Source: Sipunculus nudus (Eukaryota > Annelida > Sipuncula > Golfingiida > Sipunculidae). Taken from it: 64,000 bases of DNA. Below, one piece after another: positions 2,844 through 45,551 of the stretch; position 1 is the stretch's first letter; each line of letters starts with the position of its first letter. The stretch covers positions 102,995,142 through 103,059,141 of the forward strand of contig CM049306.1 in assembly GCA_026874595.1 (NCBI GenBank). Reading direction: 5' to 3'. Both the position numbers and the translations under genes were made by a program. Below the pieces are notes generated by a model. The model had not been told where the DNA came from, searched no databases, and worked only from the letters and a program-made list of their open reading frames with translations.

Positions 2844-3092
2844 CAGTAACGGCTAATTAGCCTGTTTTCCTCGTCAGTCCGGGCTCAGTCGATGCCACTC
2901 TCATCCAGTATTTTTTATACTGACAATATTTCTTATTCAGCTGTGCCAAAAGCTGTGTCAATCAAACTTCCTGTAGCTGCATTCTCGTGCAGAAAATATA
3001 GCATATGATAAAAAATGAATTTTGGATCTTTTCATACATAAATAAAAGCGTTACAGTCAATTGCCCGACATCTCATTTTCTTTTACATAGTG

Positions 3093-3296
3093 TTATTTTT
3101 CCCCGAAAAAAAATTTGACAATAGTGAAGAAATACTCAGTAAAACCGTTAGCAATTTGTATACTCCTGTTCCGCCACCCATATGACCTCTGACCTCTTGC
3201 TCTCTTTTCGAGCGGGGATGCCACGATGTATTGTGATTTGATTTTCTCACTACCAGGATCGCACCACCCTTTTTTTACAAATGTAATCATTTTAGG
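3093..3296 (-). CDS. possible SLC26 terminal exon, copy b
   Basis: Duplicate of the candidate at 4074-4280: 67 codons to TAA from the same acceptor, beginning [18 protein letters not shown]. If used, the gene has two alternative ends. No convincing AATAAA was found on the minus strand just downstream. Confidence 0.33.
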   Translation of the reverse strand, partial: PKMITFVKKGWCDPGSEKIKSQYIVASPLEKRARGQRSYGWRNRSIQIANGFTEYFFTIVKFFFGEK

Positions 3297-6200
3297 CTGT
3301 CCAAGTAAAGAAGGCTAGTAGTACGATTTCCTTTACAAACATACATGTAATTTCTGTATAAATATCAACAGAGTAAATTTTAATACTGATAAAAAAATCA
3401 GATATTAAGATTTTAAAAGACAGGTATAGGTTGAGGTGAGATGGAAGTCAGCAGGGCATGTTAGACGATTAATGGTCATTCATATTTGGGAAATGATTAG
3501 ACTGACTCCCTTCTCAATTGTTAAGCAAATTATTTTATTCATTACCGTAAACAACATTTGACTCACCTTCTCCGTAGGATTTGCTGGTTCACCGTTAGGA
3601 GTGGCGCCCTTCTGCGCGAATCTGTTTTTATTGTAGTCCGCTTCCTGTAAAAAGGGAATTGTTTTAACATTATTTATACGCATTTCATATGTTATTCCAG
3701 TACATATGCTTATAGATGTTGAAGCTTAAACATTGCTGCATAAGTTATATGAGGTTATTCTTTTGTATTTTATTTAACTATTGAAATATTAAAGCCAAGT
3801 GTTGATTACCATCTTCTGGCTAAATAGCAGATGAATGGTTACACACGTTACAGGGCCTTGGTTAAAATATGCTTAAAATGTTATTAATTTTATAACTCAA
3901 TCTCATCTCTCTTTGATGACTGCAAGGAATGTCAGCTCAAATGAAGAAAGATTGAGATAAAATTATTTATATAATAAAATTATTTTCGATAAAAATGAAT
4001 TTTGGATCTTTTCATACACAAATAAGAGCGTTACAGTCAATTGCCCGACATCTAATTTTCTTTTACCTAAGTGTTATTTTTCCCCGAAAAAAAATTTGGC
4101 AATAGTGAGGAAATACTCAGTAAAACCGTTAGCAATTTGTATACTCGTGTTCCGCCACCCATATGACCTCTGACCTCTTGCTCTCCTTTCGAGCGGGGAT
4201 GCCACGATGTATTGTGATTTGATTTTCTCACTACCAGGATCGCACCACCCTTTTTTTTTTACAAATGTAATCATTTTAGGCTGTCCAAGTAAAGAAGGCT
4301 AGTAGTACTATTTCCTGTACAAACATACATGTAATTTCTGTATAAATATCAACAGAGTAAATTTTAATACTGATAAAAAAATCAGATATTAAAATTTAAA
4401 AAGACAGGTATAGGTTGAGGTGAGATGGTAGTCAGCAGGGCATGTTAGACGATTAATGGTCATTCATATTTGGGAAATGATTAGACTGACTCCCTTCTCA
4501 ATTGTTAAGCAAATTATTTTATTCATTACCGTAAACAACATTTGACTCACCTTCTCCGTAGGATTTGCTGGTTCACCGTTAGGAGTGGCGCCCTTCTGCG
4601 CGAATCTGTTTTTATTATAGTCCGCTTCCTGTAAAAAGGGAATTGTTTTAACATTATTTATACGCATTTCATATGTTATTCCAGTACATATGCTTATAGA
4701 TGTTGAAGCTTAAACATTGCTGCATAAGGTATATGAGGTTATTCTTTTGTATTTTATTTAACTATTGAAATATTAAAGCCAAGTGTTGATTACCATCTTC
4801 TGGCTAAATAGCAGATGAATGGTTAAACACGTTACAGGGCCTTGGTTAAAATATGCTTAAAATGTTATTAATTTTATAACTCAATCTCATCTCTCTTTGA
4901 TGACTGCAAGGAATGTCAGCTCAAATGAAGAAAGATTGAGATAAAATTATTTCGTGAATCTCGAATGAAATAATATTATTATGTATATGCATGATTATAA
5001 ATTAATCGTAATTCATTATTCAATTATTCATTAAATATCATTCAATATGTTAAAAGAAGAAACATAATCATATGAAAACCACGAAGGAAACAGGCGATAT
5101 CCATTTCTTGTGAGATCTTCCTTCTAACATAATACATTTCATTAAAATAAAGATATGATAAATAAATGAAGGTATGATTAAAAACAAGCCTGGATATGTT
5201 AAATCATCAAGTTGACAATGATCGGTCAATGATTACATGCCCTGAGAATCACACATTAGAAAGGAAGACATGTCGACCTGTGCCCCCCCCCCCCCCCAGT
5301 ATCCCGTACAAGCAGATAAAGCCTATATACAAAAGCTTTAAATATAACAACAAGTGGCAGGATGAAAAAATAATAGAGGAGAGTTCCGTGGACTGTTGGT
5401 AGTAGTCTCTGTTGAATGGGATTCAAGGTTACCATACGTTAAGTATAATATGTTATTATTAAGCCATCTGTATTTCAGGTATTACATGCGCAAGGAATAA
5501 TCCAGAAGTCATAACCTGTCGTTAAAACATCAAAGTGAATCTCAGATGTTCCAACGAGACACCGGAGGAGATCGACCAAGGGAAGGTCCGTGGTCAAACA
5601 CATTAACCGCATGGCTACGTCCAACCCCTGACAAGGTTTGGTCCTCTCATTGTTACCGATGAAACATACTTTAATCAAGGATAAGCTTGCATAAAGCATC
5701 TCCGCAACGAACACTGATATGTTATTAATATATATGCAGCCTAATAAAGGAAGCAGCGAACCAATCAGGCGCAATGAGGTCACTTGTCGAAGGCATAAGA
5801 GCATAAGTAGCTTCCAACAATCACATCATACAGCAATCCATATTTACAGGGTGTATAACAGGATTTATATGAAATTTTCGAGTAGAATTAACATACCCTG
5901 GTCTTCATTAAATTTGTTTTACATTTTTTTTGTCCTTGAATTACCGCAAGCTTGTATATGAGTTAAAAGTTAGGAATTTGTTAAGCCACATTTAAACCCA
6001 AACACACAGTTTTAGATAGCTCTAGGTATAGCTCCAAACTGCTCCCGAGTAATATGAGCCTAATACGGAACGAAGCCGGTAATACTGCCAGGTGGAATAT
6101 GTTATATATAGAAACGTATTAAATATTAAATATAAATTTAACTTGTTGTTCATCACCTACCTGAACCTCAGTTTGGATCTACAAATTATAAGGTTAATAT

Positions 6201-7933: not shown

Positions 7934-10900
7934 TATATATATATATTTACCTTTGCAATTGGCAAGAAATACTGTAACATCAACTTCACTGTAATCCTGA
8001 ATAACCTAAATAAAATAAAAATAAAAATTGTTAGTTAACATGAAAGAGTTCCATTATGAAGACAGAAGCACAACATTAATAAATGTAAACTTACATGTCT
8101 ATTGGGATCTTGCATTTGTCACTAAGAAAATGGTTTTCTGTTATATGTCAGTAATTTAATCTATGAATGACATAAGAACAATACACAAATTTACCTCTCA
8201 GAACTTGCAATGAAAAAAGTACTGTAGATCAGCTTGAAATCCAATTTACCAAACATGCTAGCCCCTGATGAAGATTAAATCATCTGCACTTGACATTTCT
8301 TACAGTGTACCAAGGGCACCCTTAAAAATGTTCCGACATAACGGATATTTTGTCAGAAATAATGAGAGCCATGGAGATCAATGCATTAGTTTACCCCGAC
8401 AGTATTTACCTGACTGAGCGTGGAGACCCCGACGTAATCGATGAAGCCCATGGCACCACAGTCCACAATGACGTGATGGATGCTCGGCTGCGGAAGCTGG
8501 AACCTCACGCTCATCTCAATGCTCTCTCCATCCTCAATAAACGGCTCTCCCTGCGATATGAAGACTATTGAGAATACCCATTTTGCAAACAACATGAAGG
8601 GTTTAAAGCCTGAATGTTTCAAATAAGAACATTTTACATCATATGAGTCAGGTCTTTTTGAATCAGGCGATTTGTTTCATAGATAAGACTCCATTGATAT
8701 AAATCAATGTTTCATATTGGTTTTTTTTGGTGAAAACTTTTATACTAGGTACAAACCTAACTATACTAATAGTACTAATCTTTAAGCTACTATTGAATAT
8801 CTAGTTATAGCAAGTGATTATAATGTTTTTTTTTCATTTTCCAACAGATTACATTTACGTCATATTTTCACTTCAAGAGCAATAAAATGAACGAAAAAAA
8901 TATTTTATTTACATGATGGAGCCCATATATGATTAAATGAAAACCATTTGTTGCTAGAGCTATTATGATTCCCTAAAATCCATGTAAGCATCTGTAATAT
9001 CTGACAATAAACAATTTTTACATCTGTTTATGTCAGCAATAATATCGAAAGCACGACATTACCCATAATACTCAGGATAAAAGTTAAAAGGATGAAAATT
9101 ATTATAAAGCATGAAATATGACAGTAAACATTATCTTCCTTTTATATAGATAATATATATATGATGTATATAAAATTTTAACATCCCAATGTTTTATTCA
9201 AGTTGAAGTAAGACTTCACTTAGGGTGCATGTAAGTATGAACAGGTGACCCATGGGTCGTGACGCTCAACCGACTGACATGTTGACATTAAGTCCTTGCA
9301 CAGGCAACTAATTAAGATAATGTAGGTGGCATCATAGCTCATGCATATTAGCTCAAGTTCAGCAAGACCCATAAGCACACCAAATTTGATGAAAATCCAT
9401 CCAGCTCTTCCTGAAGAATCTGGCAATTTCTGTGTATTTTACATTTTTTTCTGGCGTGCTCAAACATGGACTCTAACGCAGAGAATATAGGTCACAGTGA
9501 CCTAATTTCAGGTTTCTGAGGAGAACTTTTGAGGAACTCTCAGGAATGTCAAGTTAGAAGATTCTAAGTCAAACGGTTTTGATTTGTGCCTTGCTTTAGT
9601 ATCAAATTTTCAATTATTCTGGGGGGTGCTTATAAGCTCCATAGCTAGGAGAATATGGGTAACAGAGACCTAATTTCAGGTTTCCAAGAAGACATGGATC
9701 TCCCTGGATGTCAAATCAGAAGATTCTAGGTAACGTGGTTATGATTTGTGCCCTGTTAACAGACGACTGCATCTTTAAAGGTTTCAAAAGTCTCAAAAGT
9801 ATAGAAAAAATTCTTTACAATTTTAAAAATCCAGGTGGCACTACAAATCTGCAGAAAACGATGAAACACCCCATGATCACTTTGTATGCAAAGAATGAAG
9901 ATAATCAATGCATTAGTTGTTCAGACAGTTGATCTTTTGTATCAAATTCTTAATTTTTTTGCCGATAAGTCTGAGCTTTATAGCTTCGAGGATATGGGTA
10001 ACAGAGACCTTGTTTCTGGTTTCTTTTGAGACTTTTCATTGACCTCCCTGGATATCAAGTTGAAGGTTTAAGGTCCAGTGATTAGGATCTGTGTCCACTT
10101 AACAGAAGACCACATCATTAAAGGTCTCAAGAATAGAGGAAAAAATCTGTAAAAAAATACAAATATCCAGATGGAGCCACCAATCTGCAAGGACTGATGA
10201 AACTATCCATGATCAATCTGCTTGCAAAAAATCATGGTAATCAGTGCATTAGTTGTTCAGATAATTGAGCTTTTGTATTAAATTTTTGCATTATTCTGGG
10301 GGTATTTAGGTGCATCATAGCTCAGAGGATATGGGTAACAGAGACCTAATTTCGGGTTTCCTTGGAGAATTTTCATTGACCTTCAGAATGTCAAGTTGAA
10401 AGATTCTAGTTCCAGTGATTACGATTTTTGCCCTGTTAAAAGATGACCACATCTTTAAAAGTCTCAAAAACAGAGAAAAAAGTGGGGAAAAAGTGGTGGT
10501 GGGGCCACCAGTCTGCAGAATCTGATGAAAAATTCCATGAACATTATCCAAGCAAAGAATCGTGGTGATCAATGCATTTTTTGTTCAAATACTTGAGCTT
10601 TTGTATCAAATTTTCCATTTTTCTGGGGGGTACTTCGAAGCCCCATAGCTCAGAGGTTTTGGGTAACAGATCCCTTATTTTAGGTTTGCAAGAAGACATT
10701 TGATATGCCTCCCTGCATGTCAATACAGAGGATTCTAGGTCCAGTTGTTACGATATGTGCCCTGTTGAAAGATGGAGGCATCTTTTAAGGTCTCAAAAAT
10801 AGAGAAAAAATCGTAAAAACTCGAAAAATAAAGGTGGTGCCACCAATCTATAGAAACTGATGAAACACTCCATGATCAATATCCATGCAAAGAATCACGG

Positions 10901-13309
10901 TGATCAATGCATTAGTTGTTCAGATACTTGAGCATTTGTGGCAAAATTTCCATTATTCTGGGGGGTACTTCGGAGACCAATAGCTCAAAGAATATGGGTA
11001 ACAGAGACCTATTTTCAGGTTTCCAAGGAGATTTTTCATGGACCCCTCTGGATGTAAAGTAAGAAGATTCAAGGACCAGCGGTTACGATTCGTGCCTGGT
11101 TAACGGACGGACAGACGGAATGACGGACGCCGAACAAAGGGCTAAGCTAAAAAGGACCTTGCCATGCACCGACGGCAGTGTAGCGACAAATATGAAAATG
11201 ATTCAACTTATCTCCTTCCATGTATTTTATATTAACCTGATGACGTCATTCATCTGTCTGTGCCAACCGTAAGTCTATTGACCAATGGGACAAAAGGCAA
11301 AACACGTTCGATCTAGGAACGCTTTCAGCTGAATAAATCTTAAACTTCCGGAAGACTGAATTCGCTAATTACATCAGTCAAAATGGCATCAAAAGATTTA
11401 GCTACTACATGACGTGGCGGAGGGAGAAGGGATTACATATGAAGCTTGGTGTGAGCGGTTCATTAACAAGATGGCTGTCATAGAAATCCATCCCCCATAG
11501 TCAGAGACATGCAGGCAGGCCATCTGACGCATGGATCGACACAGCAGCACGGACCATGGCTTGCTGGTGTATTAGAGATTACCCGCATGACTCCAGGGAT
11601 GCCCCGACACTACGTGCTTGTATACTGTGTGATGTGTGTTGCTGCTGACGACGATCATTAAGTCGACAGTTGACAGGAACAAATCTTTGCCCGGTCGGCG
11701 AAAGAACCAAGTATGGCCTCACTCTATGTATTGAATGGTTTCCATTAGAAACACGTACATGCAGCATCTGTTCCGATACTTGAGACCTCCAGTCAGAATA
11801 CCAGTCCCAGATAATCCCATGTTACATTGAATTGAGAAATATATATATGAAGAAAAGATAAAAAAATACAGATAAAATGTGACTATTTACCTTCTTCTCG
11901 GCCCTTTTTCTTCTATTCTCTCTTTCCTTTTTCTCTTTCTCCATCTTGTTGAGTATTTTGTTTCGCTGGATCTGTAACTTCCTCGGGTCCAGGCCTGACC
12001 TCTTGATTAATTTGTTGTAGAACTGTTCCTTATTGGCGTAATACAGCGAGGAGTCAAATCTGAAGATGTGCACCCCTGGAATCTGTTCTGCCTGTTCATT
12101 AATTACAACAATGGCATCCACGATTACTAAATGCTATAAAGTTATCCACAGTGGGGACATATAACGTCATACGAGTGCAATATACCAATGTAGGTGGCAA
12201 AAAATAAAACATTGTGTTATTATTATACTTTTCATTTAGATAATTATCATAAAATCAGACAGAGTCATTGTAAAATTAGAATATTTCCGGACAACTCAGT
12301 AAGGCGGATAACTCCCTAATGCGGACACTTAATCTCAGTCCCTTCAATTTTGTCTCTATATTATGTTTAACATAAACTCAGAAAAAAGGGACAACTCACT
12401 ATCCCGGACAACGGACAAACTATTCCGTCCCGCAAGCATATCCAGTGTATATAAAGGACCATTTAAAGCGGACGGACATCGAAAGTTCTATTTTTGTTCA
12501 TATATTTGCCAAGAGATGGCGCTCCGAGGTCGTGACCTTGTATGACCTGTTCTGGTGAAAGCGACACCCGGGGACAAGCGTAATTTTGTGAACCATTGGA
12601 ATGTTATATGTGAATAGACAGTATCGAAATTGTTGTTTATATAAATTGCAAGTGCATATTTAAGCTATTTTGAAAATGATTTAAATCAAATTTATGTAAC
12701 CTATTTCAAATTAGGCGTACATTTATTGAAAGCATAGGATAAAAAAATTCATTCAAAGATGAAATGAAATGCCAAACTCCTTAAAACAGGACAATCTACT
12801 AATACGGACACAATCCTCCAAACCCTTGAGTGCCTGGCTTAGGGGAGTTTCACTGTATGGCAATAACAATATGTAATCTACGTCATATATAACATCAGTT
12901 AGGGTGCCAACTAATCAGCAATAAAACCAAGAGTTGCAAAGATAAATGACAAGAATACACCTTCTAAAATTAATTTCTTATTTCTCATTTTTTATCGTTT
13001 TTGCTGGATATCAAAATGCTCAGATTATTTCACTCAATACAATCATTACATATATATATATATTACTACGACTGTTATAACTTGACAAAAGAAGTATTGA
13101 TATACACATTTTTTGTTAATGGCGAAATGGATTGTTAATTAACAAGCCGTGGTCACCGTATTATCAGAAAAGTGCAGCTGTGTGCACGGATAGAGCCCAC
13201 TGTGATTTTTTTATTATTATGTACAAAAGTTTAAAGGTATCAAAAGCTTCAATTAATAACTGCCTTGTGAGTCACTATTAAATGAACGAGGGCATATATA
13301 TCCATTGGT

Positions 13310-13348
<39 letters not shown>

Positions 13349-16300
13349 CCGCACTTTCCATTTTATACATGTAAATTCACGTTATTAGAATGGTTTCAAT
13401 AATGGTGAATGAAACGCTAGACGTACCGCTTTATAGACCTGGATACTCTTATATATGTCTGTGTGGGGGACCCTCCCTAGAGTACTGGTACTTGGGTTCT
13501 GAGTGCGGTACACTACGGTCAACAGGGAGAATGCTATACCAATAGCCAGCCCTATATCCACGTCCAGTACAGCAGTCGCAAGGAAAACAACCAGCCAGAT
13601 AGTCTGCAAGGTCAAAGGTCTCAGGAATAATTATGTAAACCCCCGTACTTCATCTTGAAGGGTGATTTCCTAATTATCTGATTAGCAAATAAACCGAGAA
13701 AATAAATAAGATAAAAGGAAGGCATATTTCTAACACGATACAAGGAACACTATAACACAAATTATGTTGTCTGAATCATATTTTACAGTTTCTATTAATT
13801 TGACTCTTTTGAAAATGCTCTACAGTACAGTACCCAGTCAATAAACGCCCAGAAATTAAATAAGTGAATTATCATTTACATAAATTAACAGAAATGATTT
13901 TACATAAATAATGTTTCCTTTTGAAGAATCAAATTAATACTTTTCATCACGACAGTAGAAGACAATTAAGATTTTCATGTAAATGCTACATTAATTAATA
14001 CATCAACAAGAAACATGAAGGACTAAATGAAGCAATTTTAATAGCACATAAGAATAAATAAAAAGATGATTTCCGATGAATATAGCTACACTGGTGACTT
14101 ACAAAGTCGTACTTGTTGATGAACCAGAGTTTCTTCAGATCCGTTATCTGTTTGAAAATATTCTTCAGGGCGACAATGATGACAGCGGCCAGAACTGCCT
14201 GTAAGAAAGAATTAACATCAACGAGATTATTAACATAATATATGCTTGTGCATGAGCACTGCCTCACATTATAGTTTTGTTAATTTATGGGATGCGGTGA
14301 CCACTTTTATTTAACAGCACATGGCCAAATCGTTTATAATTACCGACAAATGCCACCATTCAATATTTTTTTTATTTGTTAGATGTTTGATTCATCTAAA
14401 ACATTTATATTCTGCTTCCTAAGTGTCTTTAGCCATTTAAAATGACATAATCGATCTCAAAAACAATGAGTATACAGTAGTTTCCTCCAGAAGATAAATT
14501 TTGTGAGATTTTGTCAGGTCATTTGCTGCAATTCCATGCTTGTATTCCACGCAGCAATTTCTTTTGAGGTAAGTATGAGGTTGTGATATCATTCATCTTA
14601 TAAGATATTGATAATAATGAGATGAGAAAAAAAAACTGATGATAATAAAACTTACGTTAGGAAGCTGGGTGAAGAGTGGGCCCAACGCCAACAAAACGAC
14701 AAGAATCAATGAACAGGATACCAAACCAGCGACCTAATAACACACAAATATCGTATGTAGAAATAAATTTACTTGTTTAAATATGAAATATCGATATAAG
14801 GTAAACTCTTTTGTTAGTTCAGTGTGTTTCATGATTAATAAATATTTGTTTTCTCATATACTTCAAAGATTGCTGGTGCAGACCTTCCAGTATTGAACAA
14901 ACAAATGTCATATTTTCCTTTTAAAAATCGTATATACCGTAATAAGCGACCCGAGCGTTCTCAAAATTAAATTTTAACAAATATTTGTTTATACCCAAAA
15001 AAGCGACCCCCAGGCTCTACTATGTCCTAGTTCAGTGTGTCACGTGTTAAGATACCCTGATATTTTCACTTTCCTTTGACATCGCAATGCGTTCGCGGCA
15101 AGTTACGCACTTTTGTATGTATAACCATCTCTCACAAGTCGCAAATGCCCTTCGACGAACTCCGCAAGTCTTTTCTGACCCGCAAAGAGCAAATTAGCAG
15201 GTAAATAAAACTTTACCCAATATCTTCCAAGTGGTCTGTGCTAAAATAAGCGAGCGTTTTATCCACGTGTATTCATTATATTTCGTCAATTGTATACGTG
15301 TATGTAGATTTAAAAACAAAACGATATAGTAATTTCTGTTCCCCCTCGGCGAACTTAACAAATATTTTTTGACACGCTTATATTTTAAGCGTTCATATTT
15401 TTGACAATTAATTTTCATAAATCCTGCCCACGTGATAAGTGCAGAAACGCCGATCAGAAACGCCCTGCATGATCAATTTCATTCCTTACATTTTAAGATG
15501 AGAAAGTTTGTCAAACGACATTTTTAAACGTACATGTATTTTTTTTTCAGTGAGGCCACCATGTTTAAAGTGATATTCACTGACGATCTGTTGAGTTGTG
15601 AGTTGTCGCATCGTTTTTTCCCAGGGTTTATTTCATTTCCGAAGTATAAACGCACCATGTTATATCCAGGGGGTGCCGCACCTAAGACGTAACAGCCATT
15701 GAAATTTAGACATGCGCATTGGCAAATCATACCACTCGACTCAAACAACTTTTCACGTGAGGCTCGATAATAGCCGAAATTATCCAGTTAAAAAGCCCTG
15801 TAGATACGGTCAACCGAAATCACCAAGAGACAATTCTTATCCTATCATTTTCTGATAAACTATTGGCATTCGGACGTAAGCTGTTAATTGCTGAGAAGCT
15901 AACACGGTTTCCATGAGTCAAAAGAATCAAACACTTATGTAGCCTGGAAGACGCTATCACGCTTCTATATCGGGTACTTTTTTATAACGACTTAAATTTT
16001 CAATTGAATCCCTCCAAACTGTCATATTTTGATGTAACACTCGGCAAAAGTAAGTGAACTGGCGTGACCTATACGACGCAGTTTTCCTCGAAATTAACGC
16101 AACCGGCCAGAACGCTGATAAGTCCGTGCGAGAACACTGAAATTCCCTTCCACGGTACAAATCGTTTAGAAATAGAGTCTAACCAGTTTATTGTCATGTC
16201 GGTGGTACAATATTAAATTATGATAATAACCGGGATGTAATATTATGTGGGCTTAACATCGATGTCCTCTTGAGTTCTAGAAGAAGCATTATGTGTAACA

Positions 16301-19300
16301 TGGTATTAAATAAATCGACTTTAGACTCTTTTGAACGACTTGTGCGTACAGATTCCACTCCAAGATATTTTATATCCTGCATGGTTTCAAATAACGCTTC
16401 AACAGGGAGAAGAGGTTAACCGTTATGTGAAATGCAGTTTGAGAGGTCGGTGTCGATTTGTCTTTGTGACGTTACCCTAAGGATATAAACACGTGGGTTT
16501 ATTCTGAGTGGACCTTGAGCTCTTTGGCGGGCGTAAAGTGTAACTTCAAGGATATAGCTTAAAACGAGTAACACACGTCTTTTTTATACCCTGAAAATTA
16601 CGCAATGACAATGTAAAAAAAACTCAGCTTTTGTTGGGATCTAGATTCACAGGAATCACAAAGTTTTTTTTGCTGACGTCACTACCGAGTTGAGAGTGCA
16701 CATAGATGTGACGAATCACACTAATTCATGATATATTTTTGCAAGACAGATGTTCTCTTCCTGTCAAATCTATTTTAAGTTTTCCTACAGACGAATATGT
16801 TTAAGGATAATATAATGGGATTTCGAAAACGTTTACTTGACCTGAACCCCTTAAATTGATATGAACAAACATCAAACCGCACCTCAATTTAAACTGGCCA
16901 GCTTTGACCTGATACATAAACGAATGTGTACGGTAACATACCTGAGTGACTCCGCCGGCCCCCTCTTGGACAGCGCTCCTGGAGACGGAAGCTGCTGCCG
17001 GGTAACAGTGGAAGAATGACGTCACGGTGCTCGCAAGTCCGTATGCAAATAGTTCCTAAAAAAAACACGAGTACGTATAGATCTTATTGATTCTAAGGTA
17101 AAGTTGTCACAGTTAAAGGTTTTACTTTTTTCTTTCACTAGTTATTTGCCTAGCAATTATTTATTTTGGCTGAATGAATTTTCGTCCGTTGAATCAAATA
17201 ATGTACTAATATATCAATTTCTGAAGGAAGACAATTGATAAAAATATGTAACAAATATCACCGAAAGAAAGTAGGTAAACGGCTACAATAATGGTTTCCC
17301 ATCACTATGTTGATTTGTACTATATATTTGTAGGGTTACGCGAATTGTTCACGTAAATGTCAGTGTTTAAAAAGTCTTAACTGGGAGAAGGCCGAAAATA
17401 CTGAACTTAATTTTAAAATATTATATATAAAAGTAACCATTAGCAATGAACTGACGGGAGCTGACTGAATCATCAAAATTTAAGACTTTTGAACTAGACA
17501 GATTATGGATCGGAAAAATATGTAAAAGACTGAAGCTTCACGACCATGTAAACGAAATGACTCACCTGGTTTGAGTCCACTTCATAGTTATGTTTCTTTC
17601 CGAAGAGTTTGGCCAGGGAAACAGATATGGCAAAAGCAACGATTGCAATGGCAAAGCAGTCCCCTATCACCAAGCCGAAGTGTGCTGGTGGCGGCATCTC
17701 GGGCGGAGGGATGCTGAAAACAAAACAAATGACATTAAACACTTTTTATTACAGAGTTACATTGAAACATGTGTCTTTATTTGTCTCTTTAAACTATACA
17801 CTTGTGAAAAGTGGCTAAGAGCCTAGTCACATATTTACCGTATCCTCGGTGTTATTGTTACTAGTGCATTTTCCTGGATAATCTTTAAAAAAATCAGCAA
17901 GGTTTTCTGGATATTTTGACTAAGTTCAGATTTTTTCATATAAACCTTTTCAAGAACTGAAATGTACTGAATTCTACGAATTTGTATATATATATATATA
18001 TGTCAAACTGATTATAAGTATGCAAAATTTCAGGACAATTAACAGCCCAAATTCCAGATGTCTCACAAATACAATTAAAATTCCGTTATAAAAATCAAAA
18101 TTAGATTTTTTTTCTACTTCTACTGATAAACCATCAATTATCCATCAACCATACCACTTTTTATCATACTGTATTAATTCTTTCTGACGAATCAATGCAA
18201 AATATTTATTCAGAAACCATGGTCCCTAAAAAAATTTTTCTTGTCAGCTAAAGCAGTCTCGGGTCTTTTTCCCATAGCATTTTGGTCACTCTGCCCTAAT
18301 TTTAGGTCTGCAAAGAGATTTTCCCCAGGACCTGCCTGAACATCAAGTTAGCTATCTCTAGGACAAACAGTGGTGATTTGTCTCCTGTGCCTCGGACGAT
18401 CAGAAAGACACAGACAAAAGATGTTAATTATACCTAAAGTGACTTTCAGTCAGCTGAGCTAAATATTACCATCTTTTTGATCTCGTTGAACGCGTTTGTG
18501 TTCTTTATTTCGTGTGGCCTAAATGTGTCATGTCATATGGCAAATTGTTATGGTTATTCTTGTATACGTGTGGAAAGGAAATGTTCAAACTAAATGAAAG
18601 GCTTTGTTGTCAATACTTCCCTCTCTAAAGAGGGCCTGTATTGGGTGCTTCACACTTTAATATATTGATACACAGATGTCTGTTAATAATATTGTTTGTT
18701 TAACCAATGTGCTTTGTATATTGTAAAAGGTGGGAAGCTTAAACGTAATTTACCCTCTTGGGATATTTCCGACCACTTGTACGGCGAACCGGTCATGTAA
18801 ATGTCCGAAATGGGATGCAAGGGTAGCTACAATCACCTGAAGAGGAATACAATCAAGTGTTCATCATTTACATACTGTGTCCTTATTATATCAAGTTGTA
18901 ATGCATTAGGTATTTCACATGTAGTTTTTCTGTACTTACTTTTCATTAAATCTATATAGTGTATGGTAACTGACACCTAGGCTTTACAATAAAGCCCGAT
19001 TTGCATACTTTTGAAAGGATTATAACAAAATTTGCCAAGCAAACAATACTGACAGGAAATCCCCACTATTCTAATTACGTTTACCAATAACAAAATATTA
19101 CGTGACCTTATAAACAATCGAAATTAAGATTAGTTTTTTAGTATTAAATGTATGATGACGTAAAGTCATTTTACTTCATAACCTCTGTCGTGTTATTTCT
19201 TTGCCTGTTTCACTTACCACAATGAGTTCTATAGGCACTGGGACCTTTATGTCGTGTTATTTCTTCGCCTGTTTCACTTACCACAATGAGTTCTATTGGC

Positions 19301-22300
19301 ACTGGGACCTTTATGTCGTGTTATTTCTTTGCCTGTTTCACTTACCACAATGTGTACTATTGGCACTGGGACCTTTATGTCGTGTTATTTCTTCGCCTGT
19401 TTCACTTACCACAATGAGTTCTATTGGCACTGGGACCTTTATGTCGTGTTATTTCTTTGCCTGTTTCACTTACCACAATGTGTACTATTGGCACTGGGAC
19501 CTTTATGTCGTGTTATTTCTTTGCCTGTTTCACTTACCACAATGAGTTCTGTTGGCACTGGGACCTTTATGTCGTGTTATTTCTTTGCCTGTTTCACTTA
19601 CCACAATGAGTTCTATTGGCACTGGGACCTTTATGTCGTGTTATTTCTTTGCCTGTTTCACTTACCACAATGAGTTCTATTGGCACTGGGACCTTTATGT
19701 CGTGTTATTTCTTTGCCTGTTTCACTTACCACAATGAGTTCTATAGGCACTGGGACCTTTATGTCGTGTTATTTCTTTGCCTGTTTCACTTACCACAATG
19801 AGTTCTATTGGCACTGGGACCTTTATGTCGTGTTATTTCTTTGCCTGTTTCACTTACCACAATGAGTTCTATTGGCACTGGGACCTTTATGTCGTGTTAT
19901 TTCTTTGCCTGTTTCACTTACCACAATGAGTTCTATTGGCACTGGGACCTTTATGTCGTGTTATTTCTTTGCCTGTTTCACTTACCACAATGAGTTCTAT
20001 TGGCACTGGGACCTTTATGTCGTGTTATTTCTTTGCCTGTTTCACTTACCACAATGAGTTATATTGGCGCTGGGACCTTTATGTCGTGTTATTTCTTTGC
20101 CTGTTTCACTTACCACAATGAGTTCTATAGGCGCTGGGACCTTTATGTCGTGTTATTTCTTTGCCTGTTTCACTTACCACAATGAGTTCTATAGGCGCTG
20201 GGACCTTTATGTCGTGTTAATTCTTTGCCTGTTTCACTTACCACAATGAGTTCTATAGGCGCTGGGACCTTTATGTCGTGTTATTTCTTTGCCTGTTTCA
20301 CTTACCACAATGAGTTCTATTGGCGCTGGGACCTTTATGTCGTGTTATTTCTTCGCCTGTTTCACTTACCACAATGAGTTCTATTGGCGCTGGGACCTTT
20401 ATGTCGTGTTATTTCTTCGCCTGTTTCACTTACCACAATGAGTTCTATTGGCGCTGGGACCTTTATGTCGTGTTATTTCTTCGCCTGTTTCACTTACCAC
20501 AATGAGTTCTATTGGCGCTGGGACCTTTATGTCGTGTTATTTCTTCGCCTGTTTCACTTACCACAATGAGTTCTATTGGCGCTGGGACCTTTATGTCGTG
20601 TTATTTCTTCGCCTGTTTCACTTACCACAATGAGTTCTATTGGCGCTGGGACCTTTATGTCGTGTTATTTCTTCGCCTGTTTCACTTACCACAATGAGTT
20701 CTATTGGCGCTGGGACCTTTATGTCGTGTTATTTCTTCGCCTGTTTCACTTACCACAATGAGTTCTATTGGCGCTGGGACCTTTATGTCGTGTTATTTCT
20801 TCAACTGTTTCACTTACCACAATGAGTTCTATTGGCACTGGGACCTTTATGTCGTGTTATTCCTTTGCCTGTTTCACTTACCACAATGAGTTCTATTGGC
20901 ACTGGGACCTTTATGTCGTGTTATTCCTTTGCCTGTTTCACTTACCACAATGAGTTCTATTGGCACTGGGACCTTTATGTCGTGTTATTCCTCTGCCTGT
21001 TTCACTTACCACAATGAGTTCTATTGGCACTGGGACCTTTATGTCGTGTTATTTCTTTGCCTGTTTCACTTACCACAATGAGTTTTATTGGCACTGGGAC
21101 CTTTATGTCGTGTTATTTCTTTGCCTGTTTCACTTACCACAATGAGTTCTATTGGCACTGGGACCTTTATGTCGTGTTATTTCTTAGCCTGTTTCACTTA
21201 CCACAATGAGTTCTATTGGCACTGGGACCTTTATGTCGTGTTATTTCTTAGCCTGTTTCACTTACCACAATGAGTTCTATTGGCACTGGGACCTTTATGT
21301 CGTGTTATTTCTTTGCCTGTTTCACTTACCACAATGAGTTCTATTGGCACTGGGACCTTTATGTCGTGTTATTTCTTTGCCTGTTTCACTTACCACAATG
21401 AGTTCTATTGGCACTGGGACCTTTATGTCGTGTTATTTCTTTGCCTGTTTCACTTACCACAATGAGTTCTATTGGCACTGGGACCTTTATGTCGTGTTAT
21501 TTCTTTGCCTGTTTCACTTACCACAATGAGTTCTATAGGCACTGGGACCTTTAACTTCTTCTTTACTCTGGGATTGACGAACTCTTTAGTGAGGTACAGG
21601 ATTACCATAGATATAACCGCTATAATAACGGCCGCCCAGTTTGTCTTGGTGATCTTGCTGAACAGATCAATATACATCTAAAAATAGTCATACAACAACT
21701 AAATAAACATGTTCACATATACAATCGATATTTAAACTAAAATAAATACATGTACGGTACATGTATATATGATGCACTTGTTAAAATATCTGTTAATTTT
21801 ATCTACTGTCTGAATAGAGTCGTGCTTTTTTTATAAACCAATGTCATCACAAATTTCACCTTCAACAGAGCCTAGTTTTAAATTGGATCTTAGGTCCGGC
21901 ACATTAAGACCTTATAGGATATATCAAAAAATCTTATCCGTTCATGAAAATTCGTGTGTTCATTTATAATTGATATATATCAAGACTAAAATTAATCAAC
22001 TGAATTCTCCAAAATATAAAATTTTTAATCCCCCGCTAATGTGAACACCCGCTTATACCGTAATTAAGCGATTAATAATATACATCGAATGATATTAATA
22101 CATGTGTACTGATAATGCAAAAAATCAATATCCAACAGATTTACAATACATGCTGCTTGTGGAGCAAACATTTTTATTGGGGTCTTACCCTGACGAGTTT
22201 GAAGGCTCCGCTGAACCGTTTGACCTTGAGCCCGAAGACATACTTGACTTGACTTGAGAACACGTGACACGCGGCCCCCGTGATGAAGCCACGTGTCAGG

Positions 22301-25300
22301 GGTTCAGACAGGTAGATGGTGACGAATCCCATTTTCAGGAAACTCATTCCAAGCTGAAGAAATGAAAACATTGTAAAAGTCAAATAATACCGCTTTTTAT
22401 CCATTCATTTGTAACATGTATGAATGCTTCCATTCAGCTGATTTTTATGAAGTGCCAGAGAGGCATGAAAATAAGAAAATTTAACCGAGAATAGGTACCT
22501 CAATTGATGAGATTTGGCCTAAGAGCCCTTGCCCATATCATGGCCAAGTGATTACCGTTATATCGGCCCGGCGCTTGAGTGGATTGGCGGAAGACATAGG
22601 AATACATCATTAAAGAATACATCATTTGATGTATTAGTACGTCAATATCTGAATAAAGTTTAATGTTTGTATAATGCACACCTGTAGTAGTCCTGTCATG
22701 AGAGCTACGGCAGAAGCAATCTTCGCCTTACACTTGTCAAACTCATCAGTCTCGTAGCTGGGTTGCTCCGTCATACTGACGTTCATGAAGGAATCATTAG
22801 TCGTCATGGCACCACCATAAGTGATATTTGTCAGACCTCCAGAACCTCCGTTCGTATACTCAGAACAAAACGCGGCTTGCTTTGGACTCATCGGACTTCC
22901 ATCTACAAGCAGAATAATAATGGGCGATATATTAACAATCACAGCCAACTTTGATCAAATCACCTCAAATAAACTCTACACTGGCACCTTTTCATAAACA
23001 TAATCAAAAACCATGGTATACTCCTTGAAGTCGATTTATATTCGACCATTGCTCAGCGAAATAGCCAAAATCGTCATCAACATTCTGAGAAAAGATTAAA
23101 TACAATTGAATTACACTTGTACGTCCGTCTGACAGCTGAAATTTGAAATCCTGTACTTAAGCCACTAACATTTAATGGTACGTAAACAGACGTCGTACAT
23201 TTATATAGTTAAAAATAAATATGATTTTTTTCCCTCAGAACTTGATTTTTTATTCCCTGCTTGATACCCTAATTATGGTACAATATCCGACATATGTTTC
23301 GTTAAAATAATGGATTTTCTTAGACAGTAGAAAAATATTATTGTCAGTATTTTTGTTTTTGTTTCAGAGAATATACAAGTATATTATCAATAAAAGTACT
23401 ACTGATTTGAACACTCATTTTAACAACTACTCAAACAGTCATGTATATTTGAATAATATCAGTTTTCTCGGAACAAACAATATTAACAAAATACTGGAAT
23501 TGAAGATATACGTCAGATGTGTATAATATAGAGTTACATCTCTACAAGAGTGATATACATAAAAAAATTAATCTCTTCATGGTAATATATGAGGCAGAAT
23601 TCGAGAGAAAAAAAATCGTCACCTGTCGGGCAACAAATATGTCCATACTTGGCAACAACGCTTCCGACCATTAAACTGACAACAGCAATGCCTCCTGCAA
23701 AACAGTGTAAAATGCTGGAAAAGAGGTTTCAATGAAAGAGATCTGCTGTACTAAAATATTATACCATGATCATATGACCAATTGAGCAAAATATTGGATG
23801 AATTTGAAATTGTGTTTGTGTATGAAAGTAAAAAAAAAAAGAGAAAATTCACAAAATATAGGTCACCATGACCTAATCTCAGGTTTCCAAATAAATTTGC
23901 CTAGGACCTTCCTGCACAGTTAAAACGTTTCTTGTCTAACAGTTACCATTTTGCCTTGTAAACGGACGGACTGCTTCATCTGAGGTCTCAAAAACAGAGA
24001 AAACATGCGTAAAAATTAGAAAAAAAAATTGAGTAGCGCCACAAGTATTCAGGAAATGATGAAACACTCCATGATCAATATGCATTGAAAGAATCATGGC
24101 AATCAATGCATTAGCTATTCATATACTGGAGCTCTTGTGTCAAATTTAAATTATTCGGGAAGGTATATTCGAGCCCCATAGCTCAAAGGATATAAGTCAA
24201 AGTGACCTAATTTCAGGTTTCCATGGAGAGGAACATCCTTGATGTACAGTTAGATGTTTCTAGGGCTAACGGTTACGATTTGCGCCATATCTGACTGAGT
24301 GCTCAAAAACATTTTTTCAGTCTGTAGTTCCCAAAATATAGGTCACCATGACCTAATTTCAAGTTTCCAAATAGACTGACGTAAGACCTCCTTTGATGTA
24401 CAGTAAGAAGAGTCTAGGTCTAACGATTACGATTTGTGCTTTGTTGAGGACGAACTGCTTGATCTGAAGTTCCCAAAAATCGAGAAAAAGCGTAAAAATG
24501 AGAAAAATTACAGGTGGCGCTACTAGTCTTCAGGAAATGATGAAACACTCCATGATCAATATACATGGAAAGAATCATGGCAATCAATGCATTAGTTATT
24601 AAGATACTGGAGCTTTTGTATCATTTTTTTAATTATTTAGGGGGATACTTACGAGCCTGAGAGCTCGGAGGATAAAGGTCACAGTGACCTAATATCAGAT
24701 TTCTGAGGAAATTTTTTTTATGGACCTCGATGGATTTCAGTTAGAAGTTTCTATGTCCAGCGGTTACTAAATGTGCCATATTAACGGACAGACAGACGGA
24801 CAAAGATAACTTTAAGTCAGCTGAGCTAAAAAACTAGTTTCGAAGGAAATTTTTTTACTTAGAAATGCAGGATGCCAATGGTGTTATAAACTATACATTT
24901 TGCCAGCAGATTTGTCCATATGAAATTAAATTAAAGTCGTTGAACTTACCTAGTGAAATGTGTCTTGACGTACCGGTGAAGAAGTAGACGATGATGGGGA
25001 AGAATGAGATATACAGACCATATATAGGCGCTTGTTCTGCCAGCATGCCATAAGCCATACCTGAAAATACACGCAGACAGTGCTGGGCATTTATAAGGAT
25101 ATTAAATGGCACAAAAAGAAGAGAAAATGAAACTGTTTAACATCTCTTGGGTTAAAAGGGTCGAGCTATTGAAGGACTTGGATCGCGACTAATTTACCTT
25201 CATGGTTGAGTTTATTGTATTATTTTGATTACAAATTTAAGGGTTTTTAACAAGAATTGTTCTACATAGAAGTTAGTATTAAAGCAAACTGCCAGAAATT

Positions 25301-26124
25301 GCTTTTTTGTTCAATAAGGTACATTTATATTTTACGTTAACTTTGCAGGGATATTAACTTGTTCTTTACGTTTAGTTTAATGTTTTGCATAAGATTGGTG
25401 CAATGAATTTAAAATTGGACCATAATTAGGTGGAGGGGGGGGGGGGGGGGGCTCAAGTTAAAAGGCATAATAGGACCACTTTGGTTTATAGGTTGTTTTC
25501 TTCTTTATTATCTCAATCCTTTTGTTTAAAAGTAACCAAACCTTCAGCATACAATTTATTTGCCTTTTCATATGTTCTGTTAGGTTAAGCATGAGAGACC
25601 GATCTATATGCAAATCAAGGTCCTTTTTGTATTTTATTGATGGTTACAAGATAGCAAGAGTAAATTATGAATAATTGATATTACTAATTAATTTATCATT
25701 TTCAGGATGTGACTGACCAGGCGGTATAACTCATTACAGCAGCTTACCTTGCGGTATCTGCATAATGCCGATCGTCAGGCCTGCAATGATGTCATTTGGA
25801 AGGTCCTCTTTCACCGAGTATTTTTTCAAAATGCCGACGAACGGGAAGAGCTTCTTGATCAGAGATTTGCCACAGTCTGCCGTAAACCTCCGTTTCGACA
25901 CTTGCCGTTTCATCACATCTTTCATATGACGGGACGACTTTTCCAGCCGGTCGTAACCTTGGTCAAACTCGCGCTGGGTGAACACGGGCCTGTCGACCAC
26001 CACTGACACACGACGTGTCAGGTTGGGAGGGGGCCGCTCGTCATTGTTGAAAGCCTCGGTCTGGTCACCATTATCTTCTCCTTTATTATCGTTCATGTTT
26101 GTTCTAACGTTATTCCATCAATAT
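3093..26124 (-). CDS. SLC26: SLC26-family anion transporter gene (multi-exon, whole locus)
   Basis: Membrane anion exchanger or channel of the SLC26/SulP family. Sixteen exons join in phase from the ATG at 26096 to 6515 and give 764 residues without a stop; one or two 26-residue exons and a possible terminal exon would bring it to about 860. Residues 1-75 are cytosolic and basic. The transport core holds the family motifs [23 protein letters not shown] and AVVSLMVGS, then [29 protein letters not shown] and [19 protein letters not shown]. The STAS domain follows ([40 protein letters not shown]). The arginine in SRSAVQEG corresponds to the conserved core arginine of SLC26 proteins. The [10 protein letters not shown] stretch and short STAS loop resemble SLC26A6/A9 more than other paralogues. 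Substrate cannot be told from sequence. Exon boundaries were placed by eye without cDNA; a small extra exon between exons 13 and 14 (STAS variable loop) cannot be excluded. Confidence 0.95.
3567..3644 (-). CDS. SLC26: SLC26 exon 17, copy b (duplicate)
   Basis: Same 78-nt exon as at 4551-4628 with the same splice sites. The only difference seen is TAC for TAT at the tyrosine codon. Both copies are phase 0, so a transcript could contain either or both without a frameshift. Confidence 0.7.
4074..4280 (-). CDS. possible SLC26 terminal exon, copy a
   Basis: After the acceptor ACTTGGACAG the frame that follows exon 17 stays open for 68 codons to TAA, beginning [19 protein letters not shown]. No match to SLC26 C-termini is recognised. 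Against copy b it has four substitutions, all changing the residue, plus one extra in-frame lysine codon; that pattern does not show purifying selection. It could be a real alternative C-terminus, or a stretch where only the first few codons or none are coding. Confidence 0.35.
   Translation of the reverse strand, partial: PKMITFVKKKGWCDPGSEKIKSQYIVASPLERRARGQRSYGWRNTSIQIANGFTEYFLTIAKFFFGEK
4551..4628 (-). CDS. SLC26: SLC26 exon 17, copy a (C-terminal tail)
   Basis: 78 nt, 26 codons, phase 0 at both ends. The acceptor is CTTTTTACAG and the donor GAGAAG|GTGAGT. It encodes [18 protein letters not shown] and EPANPTEK. It follows exon 16 in phase. The other copy, 984 bases downstream in the gene, differs in this exon by one synonymous base. 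Confidence 0.75.
4952..6514. other. SLC26 intron 16, no gene recognised
   Basis: AT-rich sequence. It has a C15 run at 5283-5297 and two plus-strand acceptor-like sites (TGTATTTCAG near 5479, ATATATGCAG near 5740) before short coding-like stretches that I cannot assign. Nothing else recognisable. Confidence 0.5.
6515..6639 (-). CDS. SLC26: SLC26 exon 16 (end of STAS)
   Basis: 125 nt, phase 1 in and phase 0 out. The acceptor is ATTTCTTCAG and the donor GAGCAG|GTACGT. It encodes [20 protein letters not shown] and [29 protein letters not shown] is the terminal STAS motif of SLC26 proteins. Confidence 0.95.
6700..7669. mobile_element. 970-bp non-autonomous Tc1/mariner- or pogo-like element
   Basis: Terminal inverted repeats CAGTAGAGCGCCGTTTTTCC (left) and CAGTAGACCGCCGTCTTTCC (right, reversed) are bounded by TA on both sides (6698-6699 and 7670-7671), the expected target duplication. 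TTTCGGAAATTCGG-type repeats lie inside both ends. No transposase frame is recognised. It lies in an SLC26 intron, 60 bases upstream of the exon 16 acceptor. Confidence 0.85.
7886..7946. repeat. (AT)n microsatellite next to the exon 15 donor
   Basis: About 30 AT dinucleotides with one AA interruption. On the minus strand it starts within the first ten bases of the intron after exon 15. Confidence 0.95.
7951..8005 (-). CDS. SLC26: SLC26 exon 15 (STAS)
   Basis: 55 nt, phase 0 in and phase 1 out. The acceptor is ATTTTATTTAG and the donor GCAAAG|GTAAAT. It encodes [18 protein letters not shown], matching the STAS strand V-x-V-x-L-A-x-C. An (AT)n tract begins five bases into the following intron. 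Confidence 0.92.
8410..8550 (-). CDS. SLC26: SLC26 exon 14 (STAS core)
   Basis: 141 nt, 47 codons, phase 0. The acceptor is CATATCGCAG and the donor AGTCAG|GTAAAT. It encodes [17 protein letters not shown] and [20 protein letters not shown], the beta-strand and loop corresponding to the nucleotide-binding edge of STAS domains. The intron before it is 3.3 kb and contains a repeat element (9.2-11.2 kb). Confidence 0.94.
8551..9235. other. SLC26 intron 13, left part, nothing recognised
   Basis: AT-rich intronic sequence between exon 14 and repeat element 2. No gene, repeat or structured element seen. Confidence 0.5.
9240..11153 (+). mobile_element. Helentron/pearl-like element 2
   Basis: 5' end ACAGGTGACCCATGGGTC then GACGCTCAACCGACTG. 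A ~190-bp leader (ACATGTTGACATTAAGTCC ...) is shared with element 4. There are about five ~337-bp units (marker near 9655, 9994, 10329, 10665 and 10995). The tail is ACGGACGGACAGACGGA and GGCTAAGCTAAAAA. It lies in SLC26 intron 13, opposite to the gene. Confidence 0.8.
11154..11890. other. SLC26 intron 13, right part
   Basis: Contains ACTTCCGGAAG (ETS-like), then ATGGCATCAAAAG on the plus strand and a nearby open stretch in another frame ([17 protein letters not shown] then [12 protein letters not shown], stop at about 11500). This may be a frameshifted coding relic of unknown origin. On the minus strand 11579-11767 is open but not recognised. Confidence 0.35.
11891..12091 (-). CDS. SLC26: SLC26 exon 13 (STAS domain, first half)
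   Basis: 201 nt, 67 codons, phase 0. The acceptor is AATGAACAG, with a weak pyrimidine tract, and the donor AGAAG|GTAAAT. It encodes [30 protein letters not shown] and a charged helix of K/E/R residues, where the STAS variable loop begins. The frame is open upstream of the acceptor to an in-intron ATG, which is not used if exon 12 joins here. Confidence 0.93.
12250..12858. mobile_element. degenerate pogo/mariner-like non-autonomous copy
   Basis: Repeated CGGACAACTC / CTAATGCGGACAC / CTAATACGGACAC segments, ending in GGGGAGTTTCACTGTA. This is the end style of TA-flanked CAGTGAAAC-type elements. The left end is not clear, so it is old or truncated. Confidence 0.45.
12859..13426. repeat. SLC26 intron 12 with a (CT)n tract
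   Basis: AT-rich intron. A (CT)n run lies at about 13313-13345 and a short (AT)n at 13051-13062. No coding sequence seen. Confidence 0.7.
13427..13603 (-). CDS. SLC26: SLC26 exon 12 (last helices, entry to STAS)
   Basis: 177 nt, 59 codons, phase 0. The acceptor is GACCTTGCAG and the donor AAAGCG|GTACGT. It encodes [35 protein letters not shown] and then [17 protein letters not shown], the last transmembrane helices and the linker to STAS. Confidence 0.95.
13604..14102. other. SLC26 intron 11, nothing recognised
   Basis: AT-rich intronic sequence without recognisable repeats or exons. Confidence 0.5.
14103..14198 (-). CDS. SLC26: SLC26 exon 11
   Basis: 96 nt, 32 codons, phase 0. The acceptor is TTTCTTACAG and the donor GACTTT|GTAAGT. 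It encodes [20 protein letters not shown] and [12 protein letters not shown], near-consensus for SLC26. Confidence 0.95.
14656..14733 (-). CDS. SLC26: SLC26 exon 10
   Basis: 78 nt, 26 codons, phase 0. The acceptor is GTGTTATTAG and the donor CCTAAC|GTAAGT. It encodes [20 protein letters not shown] then FTQLPN, a hydrophobic helix with the typical GPLF-x-x-LP ending of SLC26. Confidence 0.93.
14734..16941. other. SLC26 intron 9
   Basis: 2.2 kb. The CCGTAATAAGCGACCCGAGC segment at about 14936, with ATACCCAAAAAAGCGACCC at about 14992, resembles one end of a diverged DNA transposon, but no second end was found. No exon found. Confidence 0.4.
16942..17055 (-). CDS. SLC26: SLC26 exon 9
   Basis: 114 nt, 38 codons, phase 0. 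The acceptor is GTTTTTTTTAG and the donor ACTCAG|GTATGT. It encodes [20 protein letters not shown] and [17 protein letters not shown]. It contains the substrate-site region of the family, with the conserved SR pair intact. Confidence 0.95.
17056..17565. other. SLC26 intron 8, nothing recognised
   Basis: AT-rich intronic sequence without recognisable features. Confidence 0.5.
17566..17713 (-). CDS. SLC26: SLC26 exon 8
   Basis: 148 nt, phase 2 in and phase 0 out. The acceptor is TTGTTTTCAG and the donor AACCAG|GTGAGT. It encodes the IPPPEMPPP loop, then [20 protein letters not shown] and [13 protein letters not shown], the SLC26 helix followed by the K-x-Y-x-V-D-x-N-Q motif. Confidence 0.95.
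18236..18463 (+). mobile_element. solo 3' end of a Helentron/pearl-like element
   Basis: A diverged fragment with TAATTTTAGGTCTGCAAAGA, a shortened GATCAGAAAGACACAGAC tail and the conserved end TTCAGTCAGCTGAGCTAAA. No 5' end. Confidence 0.6.
18754..18836 (-). CDS. SLC26: SLC26 exon 7
   Basis: 83 nt, phase 0 in and phase 2 out. The acceptor is TCCTCTTCAG and the donor AAGAGG|GTAAAT. It encodes [17 protein letters not shown] and [11 protein letters not shown]. Joined to exon 6 it gives [15 protein letters not shown], the SLC26 consensus, so the first array donor is the right junction. Confidence 0.94.
18837..19186. other. SLC26 intron 6, acceptor-side part
   Basis: About 350 bases between the array and the exon 7 acceptor. 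AT-rich; nothing else seen. Confidence 0.5.
19187..21553 (-). repeat. 64-bp minisatellite spanning an exon-intron boundary (~37 copies)
   Basis: GTCGTGTTATTTCTT recurs every 64 bases from 19187 to 21491 (37 occurrences), with no spacers and few substitutions. In gene orientation each unit is the end of SLC26 exon 6 (AAGGTCCCAGTGCCAATAGA, then ACTCATTGTG) followed by GTAAGTGAAACAGGC and ~18 more intron bases. The array therefore holds ~37 copies of a good 5' splice site. Variants are clustered: GGCGCTGG at about 20066-20770, CTTCGCC at about 20350-20740, TTATTCCT at about 20860-20990, and CTTAGCC at about 21185-21250. This shows local homogenisation by copy-number change. Long open frames across it on the plus strand are periodicity artefacts. 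Confidence 0.98.
21522..21677 (-). CDS. SLC26: SLC26 exon 6 (its 3' end is the first unit of the 64-bp array)
   Basis: 156 nt, 52 codons, phase 0. The acceptor is CTATTTTTAG and the donor ATTGTG|GTAAGT. It encodes [20 protein letters not shown] through a hydrophobic helix to [15 protein letters not shown]. The last ~30 coding bases and the donor are the first copy of a 64-bp repeat that continues for ~2.3 kb into the intron. Only this first donor keeps the frame to exon 7. Reading past it gives a TGA in the second unit, at the G-GT-AAG-TGA overlap. Confidence 0.94.
22189..22353 (-). CDS. SLC26: SLC26 exon 5
   Basis: 165 nt, 55 codons, phase 0. The acceptor is ATTTCTTCAG and the donor GTCAGG|GTAAGA. 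It encodes [20 protein letters not shown] and then [20 protein letters not shown], both close to SLC26 consensus. Confidence 0.95.
22682..22902 (-). CDS. SLC26: SLC26 exon 4 (glycosylated loop and TM4)
   Basis: 221 nt, enters in phase 1 and leaves in phase 0. The acceptor is CTGCTTGTAG and the donor CTACAG|GTGTGC. The loop carries three N-glycosylation sequons (NIT, NDS, NVS) within about 20 residues, as expected of the extracellular TM3-TM4 loop in SLC26A6-type proteins. It ends in [15 protein letters not shown], the start of the next helix. Confidence 0.94.
23623..23694 (-). CDS. SLC26: SLC26 exon 3
   Basis: 72 nt, phase 1 at both ends. The acceptor is TGTTTTGCAG and the donor CGACAG|GTGACG. 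It encodes [20 protein letters not shown] plus CCPTG, the rest of TM3 and the start of the second extracellular loop. Confidence 0.94.
23855..24833 (+). mobile_element. 5'-truncated Helentron/pearl-like element 3
   Basis: Three diverged ~310-340-bp units (TAGGTCACCATGACCTAAT near 23861 and 24339, AAAGGTCACAGTGACCTAAT near 24676), then GGACAGACAGACGGACAAAG and AAGTCAGCTGAGCTAAAAAA. The palindromic 5' end is missing. It lies in the SLC26 intron between exons 2 and 3. Confidence 0.7.
24950..25060 (-). CDS. SLC26: SLC26 exon 2
   Basis: 111 nt, phase 1 at both ends. The acceptor is GTATTTTCAG and the donor CACTAG|GTAAGT. It encodes [28 protein letters not shown] and TSRHISL, the most conserved SLC26 block (sulfate transporter signature region, TM1-TM3). 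Confidence 0.96.
25061..25747. other. SLC26 intron 1
   Basis: AT-rich; a G17 run at 25435-25451. No other feature. Confidence 0.6.
25748..26124 (-). CDS. SLC26: SLC26 exon 1 (first coding; N-terminus to TM1)
   Basis: The acceptor TTTATTCAG opens the exon at 26124. It has 28 bases of 5' UTR and then ATG at 26096 with A at -3. The coding part is 349 nt (116 codons plus one base). The acidic, proline-bearing N-terminus leads to a basic stretch (MKRQVSKRR), then [11 protein letters not shown] and [19 protein letters not shown], the start of the SLC26 core. The donor is GCAAG|GTAAGCT. Because the exon starts at an acceptor inside the UTR, transcription must begin upstream in at least one non-coding exon. 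Confidence 0.93.
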
Positions 26125-45010: not shown

Positions 45011-45551
45011 AAATATAAATGTTTTATTAGACCATCATGTTTTATAATATAAATGTTTTATTAGACCATCGTGTTTTATATTATAAATGTTTTATTAGAC
45101 CATCGTGTTTTATAATATTAATGTTTTATTAGACCATCGTGTTTTATTATATAAATGTTTTATTAGACCATCGTGTTTTATAATATAAATGTTTTATTAG
45201 ACCATCGTGTTTTATAATATAAATGTTTTATTAGACCATCGTGTTTTATAATATAAATGTATTTTTAGACCATCGTGTTTTATAATACAAATGTTTTATT
45301 AGACCATCGTGTTTTATAATATAAATGTTTTATTAGACCATCGTGTTTTATAATATAAATATTTTATTAGACCATCGTGTTTTATAATATTAATGTTTTA
45401 TTAGACCATCGTGTTTTATAATATAAATGTTTTATTAGACCGTGTTTTATAATATAAATGTTTTATTAGACCATCGTGTTTTATAATATAAATGTTTTAT
45501 TAGACCATCGTGTTTTATAATATAAATGTTTTATTAGACCATCGTGTTTTA
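45011..45551. repeat. 34-bp minisatellite, ~16 copies
   Basis: Unit AAATGTTTTATTAGACCATC plus GTGTTTTATAATAT. Nearly identical copies; one lacks ATC of ACCATCG near 45440, and others carry single changes. Confidence 0.97.

Follow-up and report, generated by a model that had tools for sequence, protein, structure and literature searches.

A window of 64 kb (64,000 nucleotides) from Sipunculus nudus, the whole stretch of DNA that was analysed, contains an SLC26 gene model of thirteen exons on the minus strand (11891..26096). The model comprises 657 codons, is open throughout, has AG acceptors and GT donors at its introns, and is read from 26096 with the ATG in the first coding exon found taken as its start. 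Within the product, a segment of 510 residues matches the Pfam Sulfate_transp family (PF00916) with an E value of 2e-111 over profile positions 14-379 of 380, and PDB chains of prestin, SLC26A6, SLC26A9 and pendrin were matched when an earlier, slightly misjoined version of the product served as query. The assignment to the SLC26 family made in a previous sequence-only reading is thereby borne out, and its numbering of the exon discussed below as exon 6 holds within the present model, which begins at the ATG of the first coding exon found.

A protein search, in which 7989 candidates were scored, yielded 1723 relatives, of which 120 are listed. The best named relatives among these 120 are those of Bugula (51% identity) and Watersipora (49%), both bryozoans, with mussel, chiton, Lingula and others close behind. 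By these matches the source is probably a lophotrochozoan. Residues 249-374 and 474-599 of the Mytilus coruscus SLC26A6 protein (P0004) both match exons 6-8 of the gene, which suggests that exons have been duplicated or gene models merged. The gene extends beyond the thirteen modelled exons, since the C-terminal part of some relatives also matches downstream of the model, at 8523-8389 (4/6 relatives compared) and at 6664-6509 (3/6). The 8523-8389 piece aligns with positions 27-64 of 106 of the Pfam STAS profile (E 0.00014; 22.0 bits, just below the cut-off of 22.6) and a STAS domain in the gene is likely on the basis of its sequence, while the 6664-6509 piece matched no Pfam family; neither exon has been joined to the model.

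Several further repeats occur in the window. These include a tandem duplication of about 965 bp with 97.8% identity (3007-3968 and 3988-4952), satellite arrays with units of 330-336 bp at 9593-11103, 57043-58071 and perhaps 196-2204, and a 34-bp array of sixteen copies (45012-45551) with a unit containing TTTTATTAG/ACC, which is acceptor-like on the plus strand. The satellite array at 9593-11103 sits within the SLC26 gene. The consensus units of the satellites at 9.6 and 57 kb resemble each other, and translated words are common to the satellite at 0.2-2.2 kb and the region at 55-58 kb. Scans of the whole window for Rfam families and tRNAs gave no match.

A 64-bp minisatellite across the exon 6 border

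Exon 6 (21522..21677, minus strand; 156 nt, beginning and ending in phase 0) is separated from exon 7 (18754..18836, minus strand; 83 nt, preceded by TTGTATTCCTCTTCAG) by intron 6 (18837..21521, minus strand), which at 2685 nt is the longest of the twelve modelled introns and consists to 87% of a tandem array. The array was placed at 19186-21553 by Tandem Repeats Finder, with a period of 64, 37.0 copies, 98% matches and 0% indels. Cutting at TAAAGGTCCCAG on the minus strand delimited 37 units, all of exactly 64 bp, in fifteen distinct versions with a mean pairwise identity of 97.0% and a largest difference of 6/64. Each unit is split into 32 exonic bases, corresponding to the end of exon 6, and 32 intronic bases, corresponding to the start of intron 6, and the exonic half of unit 1 is made up of the final 32 bases of exon 6 itself. 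The sequence-only reading had proposed some 37 copies of a 64-bp unit carrying the end of exon 6 and its 5' splice site, and both Tandem Repeats Finder and the unit cutting agree with this. Its division of the unit into about 30 coding and 33 intron bases is refined to the exact split of 32 and 32, and while the end of the array that it gave (19187..21553) stands, the start is one base off.

Unit 1 (21553-21490) adjoins exon 6 and carries donor 1 (GTG/GTAAGTGA; 21514..21524, minus strand). Unit 37 (19249-19186), the deepest in intron 6, is identical in sequence to unit 1. Units 2-37 (19186..21489, minus strand) supply 36 further identical donors, the last exonic base of each lying at 21522 minus 64 per unit and the final one at 19218. 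The array thus repeats GTG/GTAAGTGA 37 times without change, and GTGGTAAGTGAAACAG is present in 37/37 units, spaced at exact 64-base steps. A search of the window for copies of the unit elsewhere gave only 10-15-base matches with E values of 0.37 or worse, and none of the six imperfect pairs of inverted repeats found at 17000-23000 closely bounds the array.

Growth of the array and constraint on its copies

Adjacent units differ at 1.11 bases, compared to 1.95 in shuffled order, with 0/5000 shuffles as low. At unit distances of two, three, four, five and eight, respectively 0, 56, 506, 1282 and 4572 of 5000 shuffles were as low; the effect persists two units apart, fades at three and four, and has vanished at five and eight. 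This likeness of neighbours fits local unequal exchange or slippage, being what such processes would leave. Furthermore, it bears on the question of whether the assembly has inflated the repeat count or misplaced the array, as a run of 37 near-identical units might lead one to suspect. Such an artefact is highly improbable, given that the fifteen distinct versions occur in non-random order with variants common to neighbours, that unique flanks join the correct exon on one side and the intron on the other, and that an array of 2.4 kb is short in relation to long reads.

Compared with unit 1, the exonic halves of the copies show one synonymous and six non-synonymous distinct substitutions, one of these six creating a stop, and copies 2-37 therefore show no sign of being maintained as protein. 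In another conceivable reading each unit serves as an in-frame cassette, a 27-nt exon (AG/GTCCCA...ATTGTG/GT) adding the residues VPVPIELIV, and the length of 27 nt, the phase of 0 and the AG and GT bounds in every unit would be compatible with such use. However, pyrimidines account for 25% of the bases upstream of this AG, as opposed to 75% for the exon 7 acceptor, adjacent cassettes would leave an intron of 37 nt, and copy 24 contains a stop among changes that are mostly non-synonymous, making a cassette function scarcely credible.

Twelve of the 64 unit columns are variable and none of these falls within the 9-base donor, an outcome with a chance of 0.13. The variable columns are clustered at 13-25 and 46-54 and leave two runs, of 20 and 22 columns, without any change. 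The donor falls in just one of these, and the 22-column run lies across the unit border. Two such long invariant runs have a probability of 0.00015 under random placement, a value for a measure chosen after the data and for columns that are linked (copies 12, 33 and 35). Selection on the donor within the copies was considered and set aside, in view of the chance of 0.13 for donor invariance and of a long invariant run that holds no donor.

The absence of special conservation of the donor bases among the copies also weighs against the proposal, a dense U1 binding site having been suggested in the sequence-only reading too, that 37 strong donors form a platform binding U1 snRNP for roles beyond splicing, such as the suppression of premature intronic polyadenylation or an aid to exon 6 definition. 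In the window, the motif GGTAAGT occurs 39 times on the minus and twice on the plus strand. Its concentration within the array (37/39 minus-strand occurrences in 2.4 kb) favours this proposal; one of the two minus-strand occurrences outside it (24950) is the exon 2 donor of the SLC26 gene model. With a single unit, however, intron 6 would be short, at about 381 nt, and a role of this kind is very unlikely.

By our own rough estimate, in which about 26 splice sites, a 64-base seed and 64 kb are considered, the chance that any one new array covers a splice site is 2-3%. Arrays covering splice sites should thus arise occasionally where a genome is rich in repeats, as the other tandem arrays in the window show this one to be.

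Donor 1, the later donors and the choice between them

Donor 1 is the sole one of the 37 donors that leaves the modelled reading frame of 657 codons open. The junction with exon 7 is in phase 0 and gives the protein sequence ELIV/VIVA, the commonest residues at this point in the 120 listed relatives being ELIV/VVLG (25) and ELIA/VVLG (19). Pairwise alignments are free of gaps over 12 residues on each side of the junction in 118/120 listed relatives. The two exceptions are P0100, gapped at residue 347 of the model, and P0109, gapped at 340 and 349; these interruptions lie 9-18 residues upstream of the junction (358). Similarly, no gap occurs at the junction in an alignment of sixteen sequences (the model and fifteen of the 120 listed relatives). 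The exon 7 acceptor has a pyrimidine share of 0.75, the highest among eighteen AGs listed at the end of intron 6 away from the array. On the basis of the open frame and homology, donor 1 is well supported as the true end of exon 6, which is where the sequence-only reading had placed it, and judged by homology there is no indication of an exon end elsewhere.

A stop is met from 36/36 other donors. Use of donor 2 would shift the frame and lead to a stop in exon 7, at codon 394 after 393 residues. Donors 3-37, as well as full retention of the intron, would give products that end after 381 residues at codon 382, the TGA of unit 2 (21450..21452, minus strand), which is located just past donor 2. 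As 64 equals 1 modulo 3, 12/36 later donors (4, 7, ... 37) retain the phase, yet these still include the unit 2 TGA. The expectation that all donors after the first are unproductive is consequently upheld at the sequence level, with 36/36 truncated. Two details on which it was founded need amending: the phase is not changed by twelve of the later donors, and the TGA in the second unit ends the products of donors 3-37 but not that of donor 2. At least six more introns of the model follow the stops that result from the later donors, and nonsense-mediated decay is expected for mRNAs with a premature stop in such a position. Two words of the read-through sequence are absent from all 120 listed relatives, which says little, as none of these is marked as belonging to the species of the window.

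The array donor has a predicted U1 pairing energy of -9.9 kcal/mol, the third strongest of the thirteen modelled donors (range -12.2 to -5.1), and this pairing is equal for all 37 copies. Predicted donor accessibility is similar over the 37 units (0.004-0.020), with values of 0.0001-0.066 for the other donors of the gene. RNA structure hiding the later donors was rejected as a factor, with three units folding no better than shuffles (z +1.5; 186/200 shuffles fold at least as well) and with an accessibility that is similar over the array and lies inside the span of values for the remaining donors of the gene. Position must separate the 37 donors because donor sequence cannot. The length of exon 6 would be 156 nt with donor 1, then 220, 284, 348 nt and more with those that follow, and exon definition favours short internal exons. 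Where identical donors were duplicated, in work by Reed and Maniatis in 1986 and by Eperon and colleagues, the one nearest to the acceptor is said to have often been preferred; by such a preference the last, unproductive donor would be chosen here. According to a DOK7 study (PMC5585400), SRSF1 promotes intron-proximal and hnRNP A1 intron-distal donors. Since these factors push in opposite directions, the balance of donor choice is not readable from the DNA.

It is conceivable, along the lines of the copy-number tuning suggested in the sequence-only reading, that the later donors are often used, in which case copy number would set the share of degraded mRNA and array length would tune the transporter dose. 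The premature stop from each of the 36 later donors is in keeping with this, as are the identity of the donors in sequence and predicted U1 pairing, their likeness in predicted accessibility, and the use of downstream units in IFI6 (PMC4526556). Set against it are the frame, which is intact over thirteen exons and implies that the gene presumably still yields functional mRNA, and the donor bases, which are kept no better than the rest of the unit (chance 0.13; invariant 22-column run across the unit border). This poison-donor reading is thus considered rather unlikely. A rheostat of variable length, in which every extra unit would draw in more U1 and divert more splicing towards degraded mRNA and the number of units would fix the SLC26 dose of each individual, appears improbable.

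The reading that we prefer, with a probability of roughly 0.6, is that of a local minisatellite carried as a tolerated passenger, with donor 1 mainly used and some leakage to others. In this view, 64 bp spanning the boundary between exon 6 and intron 6 of the SLC26 gene would have been duplicated in tandem, and local unequal exchange or slippage would have increased the number of copies to 37. Most productive mRNA would come from donor 1, since with it exon 6 is at its shortest (156 nt), the condition that exon definition favours. A fraction of transcripts may leak to donors 2-4 and then be removed by nonsense-mediated decay. The array would be tolerated because donor 1 still makes protein, and would be mainly a passenger through which intron 6 has grown from about 380 nt to 2685 nt. 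Two further points count against this reliance on donor 1. Nothing in the donor sequence or the predicted fold marks it out, since folding predictions leave the later donors exposed to a similar degree, and two downstream units serve as donors in IFI6 (PMC4526556).

Comparison with known systems

With its 37 identical donors evenly spaced ahead of a single acceptor, the array is a ready-made series that would directly reveal whether cells select a donor on its sequence, on the length of the exon or on how far it lies from the acceptor. Were the later donors used, array length would form a simple genetic dial on gene dose. The repeat unit of IFI6 is said to be about 12 bp in length, with alternatives that are in frame, whereas the SLC26 unit has 64 bp, occurs 37 times and offers 36 alternatives, every one of them truncated. 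The unit of the intronic VNTR of ABCA7 is not known to be a copy of the neighbouring exon border with its donor. The IFI6 and SLC26 arrays are alike in that a tandem unit holds the 5' splice site at an exon end, as it does in 37/37 units here, and differ in gene and animal group.

That the minisatellite of human IFI6 supplies multiple splice donors has already been published (Turri 1995; cited in PMC2915984, PMC3618361, PMC2572611 and PMC4526556), and this provision of several donors by a minisatellite is the feature shared with SLC26. Two downstream repeat units of IFI6 are used as donors, giving three mRNAs (PMC4526556). The ABCA7 VNTR is reported to affect splicing (PMC5954066) and resembles the SLC26 array as an intronic tandem repeat linked to splicing. 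Intron 4 of DOK7 has a pair of alternative 5' splice sites under SRSF1/hnRNP A1 control (PMC5585400). As in SLC26, these donors compete before one acceptor and one of them gives a truncated protein, but DOK7 has two unequal donors 11 nt apart while SLC26 has 37 identical donors 64 nt apart. No second minisatellite supplying splice donors appeared among the open-licence papers listed in literature searches, which is weak evidence of absence. The kind of arrangement is already known from IFI6, and the SLC26 case differs in having only unproductive alternatives and, going by what is reportedly the case for IFI6, in its unit size and copy number.
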